From Dyella ginsengisoli LA-4 (GTDB taxonomy: Bacteria > Pseudomonadota > Gammaproteobacteria > Xanthomonadales > Rhodanobacteraceae): a stretch of DNA of 55,179 nucleotides. The notes under the pieces were generated by a model that worked only from the letters and a program-made list of their open reading frames with translations, was not told the origin of the DNA and searched no databases. The stretch spans positions 1-55,179 of the forward strand of contig NZ_AMSF01000082.1 of the NCBI RefSeq assembly GCF_000334915.1. The letters run 5' to 3'. Positions 15,699-21,243 of this stretch are shown here, piece by piece (position 1 is the stretch's first letter; each line of letters begins with the position of its first letter). The translations under genes were made by a program, and so were the position numbers.

Positions 15699-16919
15699 TC
15701 AGCCCTTCACGCACAGCACCTGGCGCAGCGTGTGCACCACCTCGACCAGGTCGGTCTGGGCGGCCATCACCGCGTCGATCGACTTGTACGCCGCCGGCGA
15801 CTCGTCGATCACCGCCGCGTCCTTGCGGCATTCCACGTGCGCCGTGGCCTCGCGGTGCTGGGCCAGGGTGATCTGCTGACGCGCGGCGGTACGGCTCATC
15901 ACGCGGCCGGCGCCGTGGCTGCAGCTGTGGAAGCTGTCCGGGTTGCCCTTGCCGCGCACGATGTAGCTGCGCGTGCCCATCGAGCCCGGGATGATGCCGA
16001 GCTCCCCTTCGCGGGCGCTTACCGCGCCCTTGCGGGTGACCAGCAACTCCTGCCCGCCGTGCGTCTCCTTCTGCACGTAGTTGTGATGGCAGTTCACCGC
16101 CATCGCGGCGAGCTGGAACTTCGGCAGGCGGTGGCGCATCTCGGCCAGCACGCGGGCCATCATGGCCTCGCGGTTGGCGCGGGCGTAGTCCTGCGCCCAG
16201 GACACTGCCTCGACGTAGTCGTCGAACAGCGGCTCGCCCTCCATGAAGAAGGCGAGATCCTTGTCCGGCACGTGGTAGCCCAGCACGCGCTTGCCCAGCT
16301 CCTGCCGGGCCTGCTCGATGAAGTAGCTGCCGATCAGGTTGCCGGTGCCGCGCGAACCGGAGTGCAGCATCACCCACACGGCGTCCGACTCATCGAGGCA
16401 GACCTCGATGAAGTGGTTGCCGCCGCCGAGCGTGCCCAGCTGCCTATCGACCTTGTCGGTACGGATCTTGCGGTGCTTCGCCTTGACCATTTCCAGTCGC
16501 GCGGCCAGGCCCGACTCGACCAGCCGCGTGTGGATGCTGTCCGGCAGGCGGTGGTGATCGCCGCCGCGGCCGTTGCCGACCGGCACGCCGCGCTCGATGC
16601 TCGAACGCAGCTGGGCCAGGTTGTCCGGCAGGTCCTTGGCGCTCAGCGTGGTACGCACCGCGGCCATGCCGCAGCCGATGTCCACGCCGACCGCCGCCGG
16701 GATGATCGCGCCCTGGGTCGGCACCACCGATCCCACGGTGGCACCCTTGCCCAGGTGCACGTCCGGCATCACCGCGACCCACGGCCCGACGAAGGGCAGC
16801 GTGGCGATGTTCCGCAGCTGCTGCCTGGCCTGGTCTTCCAGCGGCACGCCGTGCACCCAGCCCTTGATCGGCGTGGTGCTGCCTTCGGCGTGGAGCCATT
16901 CGTAGTGTTGATTGCTCAT
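15699..16919 (-). CDS. rtcB: RNA-splicing ligase RtcB
   Basis: GTP- and Mn-dependent ligase that joins RNA 2',3'-cyclic-phosphate or 3'-phosphate ends to 5'-OH ends, repairing cleaved tRNA and other RNA. The metal and guanylylation residues are visible in AVGVDIGCGMAAV, GGGNHFIEV, LHSGSRGTG, VNCHHNYV and SCSHGAGRVMSR (the latter holds the guanylated His). 406 aa, typical of the E. coli-like group. Start MSNQHYEW follows AAGGA by 9 bases; an ATG three codons earlier has poor spacing. It follows the slipin gene on the same strand after about 150 bases of repeat-type spacer. Confidence 0.97.
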   Translation of the reverse strand: MSNQHYEWLHAEGSTTPIKGWVHGVPLEDQARQQLRNIATLPFVGPWVAVMPDVHLGKGATVGSVVPTQGAIIPAAVGVDIGCGMAAVRTTLSAKDLPDNLAQLRSSIERGVPVGNGRGGDHHRLPDSIHTRLVESGLAARLEMVKAKHRKIRTDKVDRQLGTLGGGNHFIEVCLDESDAVWVMLHSGSRGTGNLIGSYFIEQARQELGKRVLGYHVPDKDLAFFMEGEPLFDDYVEAVSWAQDYARANREAMMARVLAEMRHRLPKFQLAAMAVNCHHNYVQKETHGGQELLVTRKGAVSAREGELGIIPGSMGTRSYIVRGKGNPDSFHSCSHGAGRVMSRTAARQQITLAQHREATAHVECRKDAAVIDESPAAYKSIDAVMAAQTDLVEVVHTLRQVLCVKG

Positions 16920-16954
16920 CTTTTCCATTCCTTCGGTGAAGCAAGGCGCCTCCT

Positions 16955-17045
16955 CACCGTCATCCCAGCGCACGCTGGGATCCAGTGCCTGTCCCGTCAA
17001 GCTCGGGAGAAAGTCGCTGGGCCCCAGCGTTCGCTGGGGCGACGG
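16955..17045. repeat. Palindromic extragenic repeat cluster between slipin and rtcB genes
   Basis: Two hairpins lie close together: CCCAGCG-CA-CGCTGGG (16964-16979, inside the common 'GTCATCCCAGCG...CTGGGATCCAG' motif) and GCCCCAGCG-TT-CGCTGGGGC (17021-17040). This form is a widespread proteobacterial extragenic palindrome. It may weaken read-through from the slipin gene into rtcB or protect mRNA ends. Confidence 0.7.
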
Positions 17046-17069
17046 CAAGGAAGCGCTCCGCCATGTGGC

Positions 17070-18194
17070 CTACGTCTTCAGACTCACCAACTGCTTCAGC
17101 ACGCCGTCCAGGCCACCGAACACGGTCAGCTTGTCGATCTTCTCGGTGACCTTTTCCAGCGCCTCGAGCTCCTTCAGGCGCATCAGCACCGGGCTCTCCT
17201 CGATCAGGCGGGCGGTGTTGAGCAGCGAACGCGTGGCGTTCGACTCCTCGCGACGACGGATCACGTTGGCCTGGGCCGCCTTCTCCGCCTGCACCACGCT
17301 GTTGAGGATGTCCTTCATCTCGCCCGGCAGGATCACGTCCTTCACCCCGACACCGAGTACCTCGATGCCCAGCTCGACCACGCGACCACGCGCGTAGGCA
17401 AAGATGTCCGCGTCCAGCGAGGCCTTGTCGCCGAGCAGCTCGTCCAGCGTCTTGGCCGAGACCGCCTTGCGCAGGCCGTACTGCAGTTCGCGGTAGACGT
17501 AGTCGCCGTACTTGGCCACCTTGGTGCGCGCGGCGACCGGATCGGTCACGCGCAGGCTGGCGGCCAGGTTCACCCGCAGGCTCACCTTGTCGCGGGTCAG
17601 CAATTCCTGGCCCGACACCTCCAGCGACTGCACGCGCAGGTCGATCACCTCCAGCGAGACATTCCTGCGGAAGTTCCAGAACGCGTACGCGCCGGGCGCC
17701 AGCGTCTCGACCAGGGTGCTGTCGACGAACAGCAGGCCGGCCGACTCGGTCGGCACGTCCACCGTCACCGCCACCTTGGCCAGCACGCCCAACTGACGCA
17801 GGCGCTCGGCCACGCGCGGATCCACCCGCAGCGAGTCGACCAGCGATACCGTCACCACCTCGACCGCCACCAGGCCCTTCCAGTACAGCCTCCGGGTGCC
17901 CGGTGCCAGCACGTCTTCCAGCTTGCCGTTCTTCAGCACCAGACCGACCTGGTCGGTGCCGATGTCGGCGAGCACGAAGTGCTCGGCCAGCGGGCCATCG
18001 ATCCGCGCCATCAGCACCTCGGCATCGCTGCCGGCGTACTCCGGGCGGACCAGTGGGTGCACGGTCACGGCCACGCGGTTGCGCGGGTCGAACACCCGGT
18101 ACACGCCGGGCGCCAGCACGCGCTCGAAGCGACGGTTGCGGTACAGCAGGCCGCGCTCGCCGTCGCCGACCACGATCTGCTTGATCCAGAACAT
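17070..18194 (-). CDS. Slipin (SPFH/band 7 domain) membrane protein
   Basis: SPFH-domain protein of the slipin/stomatin type, 374 aa, probably membrane attached and oligomeric. After an N-terminal region with two similar repeats (GERGLLYRNRRFERVLAPGVYRVF and DQVGLVLKNGKLEDVLAPGTRRLY) comes the SPFH core (SLEVIDLRVQSLEVSGQELLTRDKVSLRVNL, KYGDYVYRELQYGLRKAVSAKTLDELL, LGIEVLGVGVKDVILPGEMKDIL), then a helical tail (QAEKAAQANVIRRREESNATRSLLNTARL). Slipin genes next to rtcB are a recurrent arrangement in bacterial RNA-repair loci; their biochemical role there is not established. The start is supported by AAGGAG before the ATG. Confidence 0.9.
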   Translation of the reverse strand: MFWIKQIVVGDGERGLLYRNRRFERVLAPGVYRVFDPRNRVAVTVHPLVRPEYAGSDAEVLMARIDGPLAEHFVLADIGTDQVGLVLKNGKLEDVLAPGTRRLYWKGLVAVEVVTVSLVDSLRVDPRVAERLRQLGVLAKVAVTVDVPTESAGLLFVDSTLVETLAPGAYAFWNFRRNVSLEVIDLRVQSLEVSGQELLTRDKVSLRVNLAASLRVTDPVAARTKVAKYGDYVYRELQYGLRKAVSAKTLDELLGDKASLDADIFAYARGRVVELGIEVLGVGVKDVILPGEMKDILNSVVQAEKAAQANVIRRREESNATRSLLNTARLIEESPVLMRLKELEALEKVTEKIDKLTVFGGLDGVLKQLVSLKT

Positions 18195-18303: not shown

Positions 18304-18319
18304 TCCCTTGCGGGATGAA

Positions 18320-18347
18320 AATCGCCGAGTTGATCCCGTCGGCGATT
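18320..18347 (-). promoter_or_regulatory. Perfect 9-bp inverted repeat upstream of slipin (operator or weak terminator)
   Basis: Arms AATCGCCGA and TCGGCGATT are separated by 10 bases. Read on the minus strand the structure is followed by a short T run, so it could end a transcript coming from the tRNA-like elements. Alternatively it is a dyad operator just upstream of the slipin promoter region. Confidence 0.5.
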
Positions 18348-18610
18348 ATTCGAATTAGGCGGAAACGCCCCTTGACGCGAACGGGACGGAGCTATCGCGC
18401 TGTCCACGGAGAGCCGACGCGGGAGAACCGGCCCGGCGATGTGCTGCCGATGCCCGGGTCCCGGCGGCCGTCCGCTTCGAGGGCGGCGGCCCGGTCCCGC
18501 CCCCGCTGCCCCGCACGAACCGGCTGCCTTCCTGGCGGCCGGCCCGTGCGGGGCACGGGGCGTTTCCTGGTCGGGACTTGCGTCCCTGGTGTCATGACGT
18601 GACAAGTCAT
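18348..18610 (-). other. GC-rich non-coding stretch between tRNA-like RNAs and slipin gene, with hairpins
   Basis: No credible gene. Just after the second tRNA-like element the minus strand can form a hairpin with a GNRA loop (GGGAC-GCAA-GTCCC, 18573-18586) and then CCCGTGC-CCC-GCACGGG (18543-18559). ATGAC/GTCAT at 18594-18610 can form another. These may belong to the same non-coding transcript as the tRNA-like elements. The rest to 18348 shows no recognisable element. Confidence 0.5.
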
Positions 18611-18685
18611 GCTTGGAGCGGGAGTCGAACCCGCGACACTCGGTATCTGAAACCGATGCTCTACCCGACTGAGCTATCCAGTAGC
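18611..18685 (-). ncRNA. tRNA-like RNA 2 (full D, anticodon and T arms, bulged acceptor)
   Basis: The minus strand folds into a cloverleaf. The D arm is GCTC/GAGC with a GG-containing loop. The anticodon arm is TCGGT-TTCAGAT-ACCGA, whose loop centre would read CAG. A 5-base variable loop and a perfect T arm GCGGG-TTCGACT-CCCGC follow. The acceptor is abnormal: inner pairs TGGA/TCCA, then a 2-base bulge (AC), then GCT/AGC. No CCA is encoded. A CAG anticodon would be Leu, but tRNA-Leu needs a long variable arm, so this is not an ordinary tRNA-Leu. Either a functional tRNA mimic or a decayed tRNA; the intact arms favour the former. Confidence 0.6.
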
Positions 18686-18747
18686 TGACGTTGCCGGAAT
18701 CGAACCGGATGCAGCCTGCGCTGCTGCCCTCCCCTGGACCAACGTCA
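18686..18747 (-). ncRNA. tRNA-like RNA 1 (perfect acceptor and T arm, no D arm)
   Basis: A 62-base element whose ends pair perfectly as an acceptor-like stem (TGACGTTG/CAACGTCA). Inside are a 5-bp stem with 7-base loop (GCAGC-AGCGCAG-GCTGC) in the anticodon-arm place and a T arm CCGG-TTCGATT-CCGG with the conserved T-loop. The D arm is replaced by about 12 unpaired purine-rich bases, and the position before the loop centre is G rather than U, so decoding is unlikely. It abuts tRNA-like RNA 2 directly. No CCA is encoded. Confidence 0.55.
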
Positions 18748-19073
18748 TCGTGGAACACCGTCCGCCGGCCCTCGGCATACGCATCACGGCAGCGCCGCGC
18801 GCACCGGGCGGGCCTTGGGAACCCGCACCGCTGAAGGCTTTTGAGTCGATGCTTCGCATGACCGGCTGTCGCCAACCGGCCATTCGTGCAGGTCGCAAGC
18901 GACCCTGTCCGTGGGAATCCATTTCAAGCACAGCCCGCGCCGAAGCATCGGGACGCAGCGCACCTGCGCCGGTAGCAGCCGTGCCCCTGCCCCGGCTGGA
19001 TACAGCCGGATGCTTCAGGGCGAGATGGATGACCTCAAAACTTTTCGGGGCATGAAGATCCCTTTCGAACGCC
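18748..19073. other. Non-coding stretch without a recognised gene
   Basis: Open frames here have no family resemblance and no ribosome sites. A possible sigma-54-like element on the minus strand at 18927-18942 (CGGCGCG-GGCT-GTGCT, GG and GC 10 bases apart) could drive the tRNA-like RNAs; in such GC-rich DNA the match may be chance. Confidence 0.35.
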
Positions 19074-19111
19074 ACAAACAAAACGCCCCCGGGTGGGAAC
19101 CCGAGGGCGTT
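19074..19111 (-). terminator. Strong intrinsic terminator after the 39-codon ORF
   Basis: On the minus strand AACGCCC...GGGCGTT (7 bp) with an inner CGGGT/ACCCG stem forms a long GC-rich hairpin followed by TTTTGTTTG. It lies about 45 bases past the stop of the small ORF. A second hairpin (9-bp arms GGAGATCGG/CCGATCTCC, 19125-19147) lies between the ORF and this terminator. Confidence 0.8.
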
Positions 19112-19157
19112 CGCTTGAGCCTCGGGAGATCGGGGTGACCGATCTCCGCAGGCGGGA

Positions 19158-19277
19158 TCAGTCGAGGTGGGGCAGACGCCCTTCGAACCAGCGGCGCAGC
19201 GGCAGCGCGCACACGCCCGCATCGCGCTTCAGGAGCGATGTGCTTGGCATATGGGCGATGAGGCAATACGCGTTCAT
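19158..19277 (-). CDS. Possible 39-aa small protein with its own promoter and terminator
   Basis: Not recognised. The predicted product begins MNAYCLIAHMPSTSLLKRD and ends RRWFEGRLPHLD; it is basic with a slightly hydrophobic start. About 81% of its codons end in G or C, like real genes of this genome, although the surrounding DNA is AT-richer. A good promoter (19331-19359) lies 50 bases upstream and a strong terminator downstream, making a complete small transcription unit. The ribosome site (GAG about 8 bases before the ATG) is weak, so the unit could instead be a small RNA. Confidence 0.42.
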   Translation of the reverse strand: MNAYCLIAHMPSTSLLKRDAGVCALPLRRWFEGRLPHLD

Positions 19278-19330: not shown

Positions 19331-19359
19331 AGATTACGCGCGGCATTTCGTCATTGCAA
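19331..19359 (-). promoter_or_regulatory. Sigma-70 promoter of the 39-codon unit
   Basis: Minus strand TTGCAA, 17 bases, TAATCT. It lies in an AT-rich pocket; transcription would start near 19324. An inverted repeat with CGATTAAT/ATTAATCG arms (19370-19398) lies just upstream of the -35 box and could be an operator. Confidence 0.6.
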
Positions 19360-19414: not shown

Positions 19415-20017
19415 TTACAGCCAGCCTTTCTGCCGTGCCAGACGATACGCCTCGATGCGATTGCCGACACCGAGCTTGCCGATCGCCTCGGACAGGTAAT
19501 TGCGCACGGTGCCGTGCGACAGGTGCAGCTGGGTGGCGATGTCGCTGGCACTCTGGCCTTCGCCGGCCAGGCGCAGCACCTGGCGCTCGCGATCGTTGAG
19601 CGGATCGGCCTCCGACCAGGCGTCCAGCGCCAGTTGCGGATCGATCGAGCGCCCGCCGCGATGGACCATGCGCAGCGCCTCGGCCAGGTTCTCCGCCGGC
19701 GCGTCCTTCAGCAGGTAGCCGGACACGCCCGCCTCCAGCGCGCGACGCAGGAAGCCGGGGCGGGCGAAGGTGGTGACGATGATCACCTTGATCGGCAGCT
19801 CGTGACGCTGGATGCGCTGGGCCAGCTCCAGCCCGGTGAGCCCGGGCATCTCGATGTCGGTGACCAGCACGTCCGGCTTCAGCCGCTGGAGCTCGCGCCA
19901 GGCCGCCTCGCCGTCCGGCGCGCTGCCCAGCACCTCGATGTCGCTTTCCAGGTTGAGCAGCGCCGAGAGCGCGCCGCGCACCATCGCCTGGTCCTCGGCC
20001 AGCATCACGCGGATCAT
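19415..20017 (-). CDS. LuxR/NarL-family response regulator (DesR-like)
   Basis: 200-aa DNA-binding response regulator. The receiver domain starts MIRVMLAEDQAMVRGALSALL with the phospho-acceptor Asp in VLVTDIEMPG, the Thr in IVTTF and the Lys in LLKDAP. The C-terminal LuxR helix-turn-helix is LNDRERQVLRLAGEGQSASDIATQLHLSHGTVRNYLSEAIGKL. The start overlaps the stop of the upstream kinase gene by 4 bases. The likely target is the ABC exporter operon itself, as in the Bacillus yvfRSTU and desKR-type systems; this is inference. Confidence 0.94.
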   Translation of the reverse strand: MIRVMLAEDQAMVRGALSALLNLESDIEVLGSAPDGEAAWRELQRLKPDVLVTDIEMPGLTGLELAQRIQRHELPIKVIIVTTFARPGFLRRALEAGVSGYLLKDAPAENLAEALRMVHRGGRSIDPQLALDAWSEADPLNDRERQVLRLAGEGQSASDIATQLHLSHGTVRNYLSEAIGKLGVGNRIEAYRLARQKGWL

Positions 20018-21243
20018 GCGGCGCTCCCGGCCGCGTGACGGCGCGTGCCAGCATCGGCTGGCGGTTGTGCGGAGATCGCCATCGGTACGGCAACGGTGAT
20101 CGTGGTGCCTTTGCGCAGCGGGGAATCGATGACCAGGCTCCCGCCCAGGGCACGCATCCGCTCGCGCATGCCACTGATGCCGTTGCCATGCGCGGCCAGC
20201 CCGCCGCAACCGTTGTCGCTGATCCGCATCCTGAATTCGCCTTCCTCGCTGGAGATCTCGATGCGCGCCTCGGTGGCGCGCGCGTGTCGGTGGATGTTGG
20301 TGACTGCCTCGCGCAGCACCAGCGCGAGCGGCGCCTCGACCTCGCGTGGCAGCGCCAGCGATTCGGGCGTACCGCCGCCGAGCAGGATGCCGGACGCCTC
20401 AAGCATCAGGCGCGCGGAAATCAGTTCGGCGGCCAGGTCGCCACGACGCATGCCGGTGACCGCGGCGCGCACCTCGCCCAGCGCATGGCGGGCCACGCGC
20501 TCGACCTCTTCCATCTCGCGCTGCGCCGCGTTCGCATCACGCAGGGCCAGCTTGCGCGCCAGCTCCGACTTGATCGCCACCAGCGACAGCGTATGGCCGA
20601 GCAGGTCGTGCAGATCACGGCCGATGCGCTCGCGCTCGGCCAGCGTGGCCAGCCGGCGCACCTCCTCCTGCGACAGCCGCAGCTCGGCGTCGCGGCGCAC
20701 GCCACGCATGTAGATGAAGTTGCTGAAGCCGCCGAACAGCGAGGTCATGGGCACCACCAGCAGCAGGCTCTTGTGGCCGTCGATCAGCAGCACCTCGGGC
20801 ACGGCAAGCAGCGACGCCACCGCCACCGCGAGCAGCCACAACCGCCAGGAAGGATGAAACGCCAGGTTGATGCTGGCGATCATCAGATAGATGAAGGCGG
20901 CGCTGTTGAGCGGCCACAGCAAGAGGCCGATCGCCACCAGCCCGGCGGCGTTCACCACCATCTGCCGTACCGGCATGATGTACATGCGGATGTAGAAGAA
21001 CAGGTAGAACACCAGCGAGAGCAGGGTCGGACCCATCCAGTGCCAGCTGAAGCCTTTCTCCAGGGGGAGCATGATCACCGCGATGAACGAAAACAGCTGC
21101 AACCCGGCCTGCCAGCGCAGGTAGGTGGGTGAGCGCAGCTGGCCGAGCAGCGACTCGGGATCGGGCCGGAACAGGCGGTGGAAGGCCCCGGCGAAAGGCC
21201 TTTGCCGGACGCACGGCGCCACGGAATGCATCGGCGTGCTCAT
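20014..21243 (-). CDS. DesK-family sensor histidine kinase (first of two)
   Basis: 409-aa membrane kinase. Five or so hydrophobic segments occupy about residues 45-190 with no periplasmic domain, suggesting a membrane-borne signal. The HisKA_3 phospho-site is ERERIGRDLHDLLGHTLSLVAIK, and the ATPase domain shows EAVTNIHRHARATEARI, SDNGCGG and GNGISGMRERMRALGG. It overlaps the regulator gene and the second kinase gene by 4 bases each. It is clearly paralogous to the next kinase, mostly in the catalytic half. Confidence 0.93.
   Translation of the reverse strand: MSTPMHSVAPCVRQRPFAGAFHRLFRPDPESLLGQLRSPTYLRWQAGLQLFSFIAVIMLPLEKGFSWHWMGPTLLSLVFYLFFYIRMYIMPVRQMVVNAAGLVAIGLLLWPLNSAAFIYLMIASINLAFHPSWRLWLLAVAVASLLAVPEVLLIDGHKSLLLVVPMTSLFGGFSNFIYMRGVRRDAELRLSQEEVRRLATLAERERIGRDLHDLLGHTLSLVAIKSELARKLALRDANAAQREMEEVERVARHALGEVRAAVTGMRRGDLAAELISARLMLEASGILLGGGTPESLALPREVEAPLALVLREAVTNIHRHARATEARIEISSEEGEFRMRISDNGCGGLAAHGNGISGMRERMRALGGSLVIDSPLRKGTTITVAVPMAISAQPPADAGTRRHAAGSAA

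Follow-up and report, generated by a model that had tools for sequence, protein, structure and literature searches.

Two tandem tRNA-like domains, TL1 and TL2, lie upstream of a slipin gene in a 55,179-nt contig of Dyella ginsengisoli LA-4 (NZ_AMSF01000082.1; the whole stretch is referred to as the window). On the sequence comparisons presented here, they are real, strongly conserved and covarying tRNA mimics tied to this slipin. The two domains sit mid-way in a covarying structured region of ~530 nt, which the preliminary description of the locus had missed and which may well be the first product of an RNA-repair operon. The features of the locus are listed in Table 1.

Table 1. Features of the slipin locus, in order along the minus strand (window positions)
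Feature	Position	Strand	Basis
Promoter-like TTGCAA-17-TAATCT	19331..19359	-	from sequence; similar motif in aligned loci by eye
Leader ORF, 39 codons plus stop, ending within segment 1 of the putative attenuator	19158..19277	-	
Putative attenuator hairpin, segments 2:3	19125..19147	-	
Intrinsic-terminator-like hairpin, segments 4:5, then T-rich tract	19081..19112	-	
Hairpin H0, opening the large structured region at its 5' end	18855..18886	-	two-sided changes in 9/11 pairs
5' domain: stem 18830-18854 with 18753-18776, holding H1 and H2	18753..18854	-	alignment fold, covariation
H1	18806-18829	-	hairpin inside 5'-domain stem
H2	18777-18804	-	hairpin inside 5'-domain stem
tRNA-like domain 1 (TL1), 4-nt anticodon-arm loop	18686..18747	-	de novo fold and covariation
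tRNA-like domain 2 (TL2), 4-bp acceptor, free 'anticodon'	18614..18680	-	Rfam tRNA 51.6 bits; covariation
H3	18593-18611	-	hairpin, within 18573..18611; alignment fold
H4, GCAA loop in the window	18573-18586	-	hairpin, within 18573..18611; alignment fold
3' domain: long-range helix of 11 bp (18557-18567 paired with 18361-18371) around H5 and a long arm	18361..18567	-	
Slipin (SPFH/Band 7 protein)	17070..18194	-	PF01145, E 2.1e-25
RtcB RNA ligase, ORF as listed	15699..17048	-	PF01139, E 5.2e-126

TL1 and TL2 form a tandem of covarying cloverleaves

The preliminary description had noted two adjacent tRNA-like structures on the slipin and rtcB strand. Both were located on the minus strand, with TL1 5' of TL2 and the tandem 419 nt upstream of slipin. 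TL2 matched the Rfam tRNA model (RF00005) at 51.6 bits, above the gathering threshold of 29, and ranked lowest among the genome's 47 tRNA matches. TL1 was under the threshold of every Rfam family, its match within the tRNA clan being to tRNA-Sec at 21.1 bits versus a threshold of 47, and ARAGORN reported neither domain. We aligned 36 tandem pairs, and their de novo fold was a double cloverleaf. Compensatory (two-sided) changes were found in 24 of the 38 base pairs compared to a mean of 14.2 in shuffled alignments, 96.5% of cells were paired, and none of 500 shuffles reached any of the five measures. The covariation exceeds chance, and it speaks against decayed tRNAs.

The alignment also revised the folds. 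TL1 had been reported to have no D arm, which is too strong, since both the minimum-energy fold and the alignment show a short D-type hairpin (GUCC/GGGC); TL1 is nevertheless unusual, its oddity being the 4-nt loop in the anticodon arm. The acceptor of TL2, previously drawn as bulged, is a 4-bp helix (UGGA/UCCA) whose pairs hold in 96.5% of cells over the 36 aligned loci. The statement that neither element encodes CCA holds for the 3' ends of TL1 and TL2 in the window but not for the homologues, since 38 of 57 have a CCA between the end of the TL1 acceptor and the start of TL2. CCA was encoded by all 30 of the ordinary tRNAs examined from this genome (30 of 46).

The decoding ends of the two domains were compared in 57 of 59 aligned rows, with L086, a duplicate, and a pair of ordinary tRNAs in L108 removed. 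The anticodon arm of TL1 has a 7-nt loop in 8 of the 57 loci and is without it in 49; the loop is 4 nt long in 29, and in 14 of those 29 it reads GCAN. TL2 has a 7-nt loop in 50 loci, and these 50 show 24 different 'anticodon' triplets, with U33 in 33. The D-loop GG is kept in 56 loci for TL1 and in all 57 for TL2, and the T-loop TTCRA is kept in 57 of 57 for both. A body that is kept while the reading head drifts or is lost is the opposite of what translational selection produces. The set of features expected of a functional tRNA (a 7-nt anticodon loop, a conserved anticodon and a 7-bp acceptor) was found in neither TL1 nor TL2. We reject ordinary tRNAs on the drifting or lost decoding ends.

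The tandem accompanies slipin across Pseudomonadota

A slipin search of 60 genomes, including that of the window, gave 13 clear orthologues (E<1e-90), all 13 of which have at least one Rfam tRNA match upstream of slipin on the slipin strand. In a scan of named genomes we used the best 80 of 554 relatives, which span Rhodanobacter, Dyella, Lysobacter, Luteimonas, Xanthomonas, Pseudoxanthomonas and Stenotrophomonas and also include Competibacter, Thiotrichaceae, Acidovorax and others. A model of the TL1/TL2 pair (R1) was built on 36 loci and searched against 90, so that 54 of the searched loci were outside the build set; L044, L061 and L102 were omitted from this run and from the corresponding run with R2 (see below) because their upstream sequence was too short. 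This search, which had been suggested as a check, placed R1 upstream of slipin, and on its strand, in 89 of the 90 loci with E<=1e-3; the remaining locus (L082) had E 0.0044. The distance from R1 to slipin was 213-615 nt with a median of 366 nt (the nearest match was taken if there were several). Within the Dyella genome, the window pair was the best R1 match at 132.8 bits, and the next, at 87.7 bits, were in ordinary tRNA clusters. Among 16 control loci of other, weakly similar SPFH genes, taken from the 60-genome search, the best E-value of R1 was 0.062 and none reached E<=0.01.

Two broader draws gave a similar picture. Of 369 genomes drawn at class level, 21 had slipin at E<=1e-50, the window's own included, and R1 was upstream at E<=1e-3 in 19 of these 21 loci. 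R1 was not found in L152 or in L138, the latter of which has an R2 match, and in L145 the R1 match was ~1.35 kb upstream, beyond the usual spacing. Of 398 genomes drawn at phylum level, 23 had slipin, and R1 was found in 17 of 18 new loci; the single miss (L167) was at a contig edge with too little upstream sequence. Eight of these 23 genomes were from outside the class of the window, and R1 was found in seven of the eight. A tRNA within 1.5 kb upstream would be expected by chance in roughly 1% of cases, assuming 50 tRNAs. Loci outnumber genomes since some share a contig (L086 with L037, L112 with L040, L141 with L111), and genomes of the different samples may overlap.

In L068, L099, L107, L117, L118, L108, L156 and L161, ordinary-looking tRNA genes also precede the tRNA-like/slipin unit on its own strand. 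Those of L068 and L099 form arrays of eight or nine.

The tandem is the middle of a larger structured region

The core of the ~530-nt region runs from H0 through the stem with H1 and H2, TL1, TL2, H3 and H4 to the 11-bp helix around H5 and the long arm. For 42 Xanthomonadaceae-type loci, folded with RNAalifold between the leader stop codon and slipin, the consensus had 215 base pairs, 139 of them with two-sided changes; this is a raw count, the shuffles having been run per domain instead, and a few of the pairs near the ends look spurious. The set comprised 42 of 47 rows, with L069, L075, L077, L081 and L082 left out. Alignments A2, A3, A4 and A5 had 36, 32, 33 and 33 rows, respectively, selected from larger row sets. 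In the 5' domain, two-sided changes were found in 28 of 42 pairs compared to 17.4 in shuffles, and in the 3' domain in 40 of 46 compared to 25.6; none of 500 shuffles reached the observed value in either case. The 11-bp long-range helix had two-sided changes in 10 of its 11 pairs, with 97% of cells paired. Controls in which the partners were slid are biased in favour of the structures, which were derived from the same alignments, but these controls were far lower. Over the 42 loci, the 3' domain was 241-306 nt long and the 5' domain 131-167 nt, except one of 99 nt. Taken by itself, the sequence of the region in the window folded at -286 kcal/mol (z -4.7).

When the region was searched with Rfam, tRNA was the sole family reaching threshold. 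A model of the 5' domain (R2) matched 73 of the 90 loci on the slipin strand at E<=0.01 (32 of these 73 had been used to build it), its matches abutting the 5' end of R1 or running over it. At the same threshold, R2 was found in 8 of the 21 slipin loci of the class-level draw. With stricter filters, R2 matched five genomes in the whole 369-genome draw, four of them beside slipin; the fifth (G274, locus L132, E 0.0064) had no slipin match at E<=1e-50 and may be a chance match.

No clear U run was found after the long helix in the window. A further hairpin with TTTT (ATCGCCGA...TCGGCGATTTT) was seen by eye at 18318-18346 on the minus strand, between the large RNA and slipin. It could end the large RNA, and it is absent from the list of the terminator scan.

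A leader ORF and a putative attenuator precede the RNA, mainly in Xanthomonadales

In Xanthomonadaceae-type loci, the structured region is preceded, in this order, by promoter-like hexamers, a leader ORF, a hairpin and a terminator. A strict scan listed no promoter. The leader ORF was present in 45 of 45 loci compared to 6.2 expected from shuffles. The leader peptide showed no codon-position bias (25/23/29; pairs >0.7 identical), and we therefore claim no conserved peptide, leader translation resting on the presence of the ORF. Downstream of it, four competing and mutually exclusive helices can form, with mean energies of -14.8 (1:2), -14.4 (2:3), -13.4 (3:4) and -23.5 (4:5) kcal/mol. This arrangement could be parsed in all 33 aligned loci, where helix 1:2 beat the shuffles (z<-2) in 27 and helix 3:4 in 25; the shuffles were of single bases rather than dinucleotides, and one of the 33 rows (L066) was misparsed at the terminator and fails for 3:4. 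The leader ORF, the mutually exclusive helices and the terminator seen here make up the anatomy of a leader-peptide attenuator. Among loci of other groups, 12 of 32 had a terminator-like site compared to 3.5 expected (32 of 33 loci were scanned, L095 being too short), and five of these 12 were the Stenotrophomonas loci, all five of which had one. Together, these comparisons suggest that the attenuator is found mainly in Xanthomonadales.

In the window the leader stop codon lies within segment 1, so a ribosome that finishes the leader would favour the terminator and one that fails would favour read-through. Leader-dependent switching, which we infer from this anatomy, would operate as follows. 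Ribosomes at the leader stop codon would cover segment 1, helix 2:3 would form, helix 4:5 would then form and transcription would stop. When translation fails, for example through damaged tRNA or rRNA, helices 1:2 and 3:4 would form and prevent the terminator, and the RNA, slipin and RtcB would be made.

The RNA is linked to RtcB, and more closely to slipin

Within the 369-genome draw, RtcB was found in 20 of the 21 slipin-bearing genomes compared to 105 of the 348 others (Fisher p 2e-9). The rtcB gene was <=4 kb from slipin in 12 of the 21. Over 93 loci, RtcB was found in 65, in some of them upstream; several of the others end at a contig edge and others do not. The idea that the elements are tRNA mimics of a slipin-rtcB system is borne out in that they are conserved, covarying and slipin-tied, but their tie to rtcB is weaker, and genome comparison suggests an RNA tied to slipin more than to rtcB. 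In the window, the RtcB ORF follows slipin on the minus strand; its Pfam match begins at residue 77, so the true RtcB start is probably further in.

The preliminary description saw no Ro60, rtcA or rtcR gene in the window, and the same was found genome-wide: TROVE/Ro60 (PF05731), RtcR (PF06956) and RtcA (PF01137) had no match in the genome, whereas the controls were positive in Deinobacterium (TROVE) and in E. coli (RtcR and RtcA). The YrlA model (RF02553) scored 16.2 bits versus a gathering threshold of 69, and the Deinococcus Y RNA model 17.8 versus 80. A Y RNA of a Ro60 RNP is rejected on these sub-threshold scores and the lack of a TROVE match in the genome, as is an RtcR-controlled rtcBA operon on the lack of RtcR and RtcA matches. 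The suggested kinship with an RtcR-type system is not supported; Xanthomonadales have the putative leader-ORF attenuator instead.

An SPFH gene, an RtcB gene and a tRNA-like RNA occur together at this locus, the combination that defines an SPFH/Band-7-RtcB system. Burroughs and Aravind (2016) reportedly described SPFH/Band-7 scaffolds and RtcB together with a novel tRNA-like molecule. What the present locus shares with that system is the SPFH gene, RtcB and a non-coding RNA of tRNA-like form; it has tandem domains, a ~530-nt region and a putative leader-ORF attenuator. In open-licence papers, among the matches listed, we found neither the tandem nor the 530-nt region nor the attenuator described, and the main text of two surveys of structured RNAs was without the terms searched for. 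The RNA is reportedly of a known kind, to which its length, the doubling of the tRNA-like domain and the switch seem to be additions; the architecture of 530 nt and the putative attenuator look new. The large structured RNA is reminiscent of OLE, a membrane-associated RNP (PMC10898510), and of other large ornate bacterial RNAs, but it has no Rfam match beyond tRNA. The partners and structure of OLE are not known to be related to those of this RNA.

Partial resemblances exist to three other systems. The rsr-yrlBA-rtcBA operon encodes RtcB together with tRNA-mimicking Y RNAs (PMC7790460), a combination shared with the present locus, which differs in having no TROVE, RtcR or RtcA match and in its low YrlA score. 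In Pseudomonas aeruginosa, the leader peptide PA5471.1 is proposed to attenuate the RtcB-like armZ in response to impaired ribosomes (PMC12057347). The leader peptide, the proposed attenuation, the RtcB-like gene and the response to impaired ribosomes, here predicted, are shared, whereas ArmZ acts on an efflux repressor and no tRNA-like RNA is described for the armZ system there. In Anabaena, the repressor TrcR controls rtcB together with a slipin-family gene and an array of 26 tRNAs, and translational stress lifts the repression (PMC10272220). Common translational-stress control, here predicted, of rtcB, a slipin-family gene and tRNA genes is the likeness; the differences are that Anabaena has ordinary tRNAs in a 26-gene array, a repressor protein and separate loci. 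The rtc locus of P. aeruginosa also contains an SPFH gene (PMC13086221).

A proposed repair operon and its alternatives

We give about an even chance to the reading that slipin and rtcB belong to an RNA-repair operon and that the first thing it yields is a large structured RNA carrying two domains that mimic tRNA, expressed through the switch outlined above. The reading draws on the position of the RNA, its covarying structure, the loss or drift of the decoding loops, the joint occurrence of slipin with RtcB and, for Xanthomonadales, the leader ORF with its exclusive helices. The RNA would probably partner the membrane-anchored slipin oligomer, as a scaffold or as a tRNA mimic. The decoding-dead tRNA bodies would dock tRNA-handling machinery (RtcB or helpers) or, alternatively, would compete for a tRNA-cutting nuclease, themselves neither translated nor cut at the anticodon. 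A bolder version, which we advance only tentatively, is a new class of ~530-nt RNA in which two decoding-dead tRNA bodies form a membrane RNP with the slipin oligomer, gathering RtcB and broken tRNAs, and in which the leader ORF reads general translation failure as the switch.

We consider it rather unlikely that the region is purely a cis-acting 5' UTR, in which RNase P, RNase Z or other tRNA enzymes would cut or bind the domains, and the state of tRNA processing would govern maturation or translation of the slipin-rtcB mRNA. The steady distance to slipin, the CCA that 38 of 57 loci have close to the 3' end of TL1 and the preserved T-loop and D-loop motifs are consistent with such a role, but the 4-bp acceptor of TL2 without CCA is unlike a substrate of RNase P or RNase Z, and the 5' and 3' domains exceed what a processing signal needs. 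Less probable still is a decoy, in which the tRNA bodies would soak up a tRNA-cutting toxin, an anticodon nuclease or a damage sensor. TL1 has lost its anticodon loop and that of TL2 drifts while the body is kept, as a decoy would allow, and a similar idea for YrlA appears in PMC7790460; an anticodon nuclease, however, would be expected to require the very loop that TL1 has lost. That TL1 and TL2 are functional, specialised tRNAs used only under stress seems very improbable: their cloverleaf bodies and the precedent of the stress tRNA array of Anabaena (PMC10272220) speak for it, whereas the missing 7-nt loop of TL1 in 49 of 57 loci, the 24 anticodons and the 33 U33 among the 50 TL2 loops of 7 nt, and the 4-bp TL2 acceptor speak against it. 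Ordinary tRNA genes decayed near slipin by chance are hardly credible, even though TL2 is closest to tRNA-Asp among 30 tRNAs of the genome (by gap-free identity, which gaps inflate) and some distant loci have ordinary tRNA genes nearby, and are rejected on the compensatory changes in both cloverleaves, alongside the same placement in named genomes of gamma- and betaproteobacteria as well as 7 of 8 genomes from another class of the phylum, and the roughly 1% chance expectation.

The repair-operon reading would provide Band-7/RtcB repair systems with a concrete RNA whose architecture can be tested and, for Xanthomonadales, with a concrete switch. If true, bacterial RNA repair can be linked directly to translation failure in systems without RtcR or Ro60. 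It also raises the question of why a membrane scaffold should need imitation tRNAs, and, with the anticodon drifting freely on a preserved body, evolution has run a clean experiment on which portion of a tRNA is recognised by the partner.

Neighbouring genes

The genes around the unit vary between loci. Additional ORFs lie between slipin and rtcB in L070 (4782-5663) and L120 (4426-5169), and that of L120 has no Pfam match. In two betaproteobacterial loci, L116 (4689-5807) and L123 (4688-5815), RtcB was not found in the stretch of sequence covered, and the ORF that follows slipin has matches to AAA ATPase families. In the window, response regulator and histidine kinase genes (19415-21243) adjoin the unit on the same strand.
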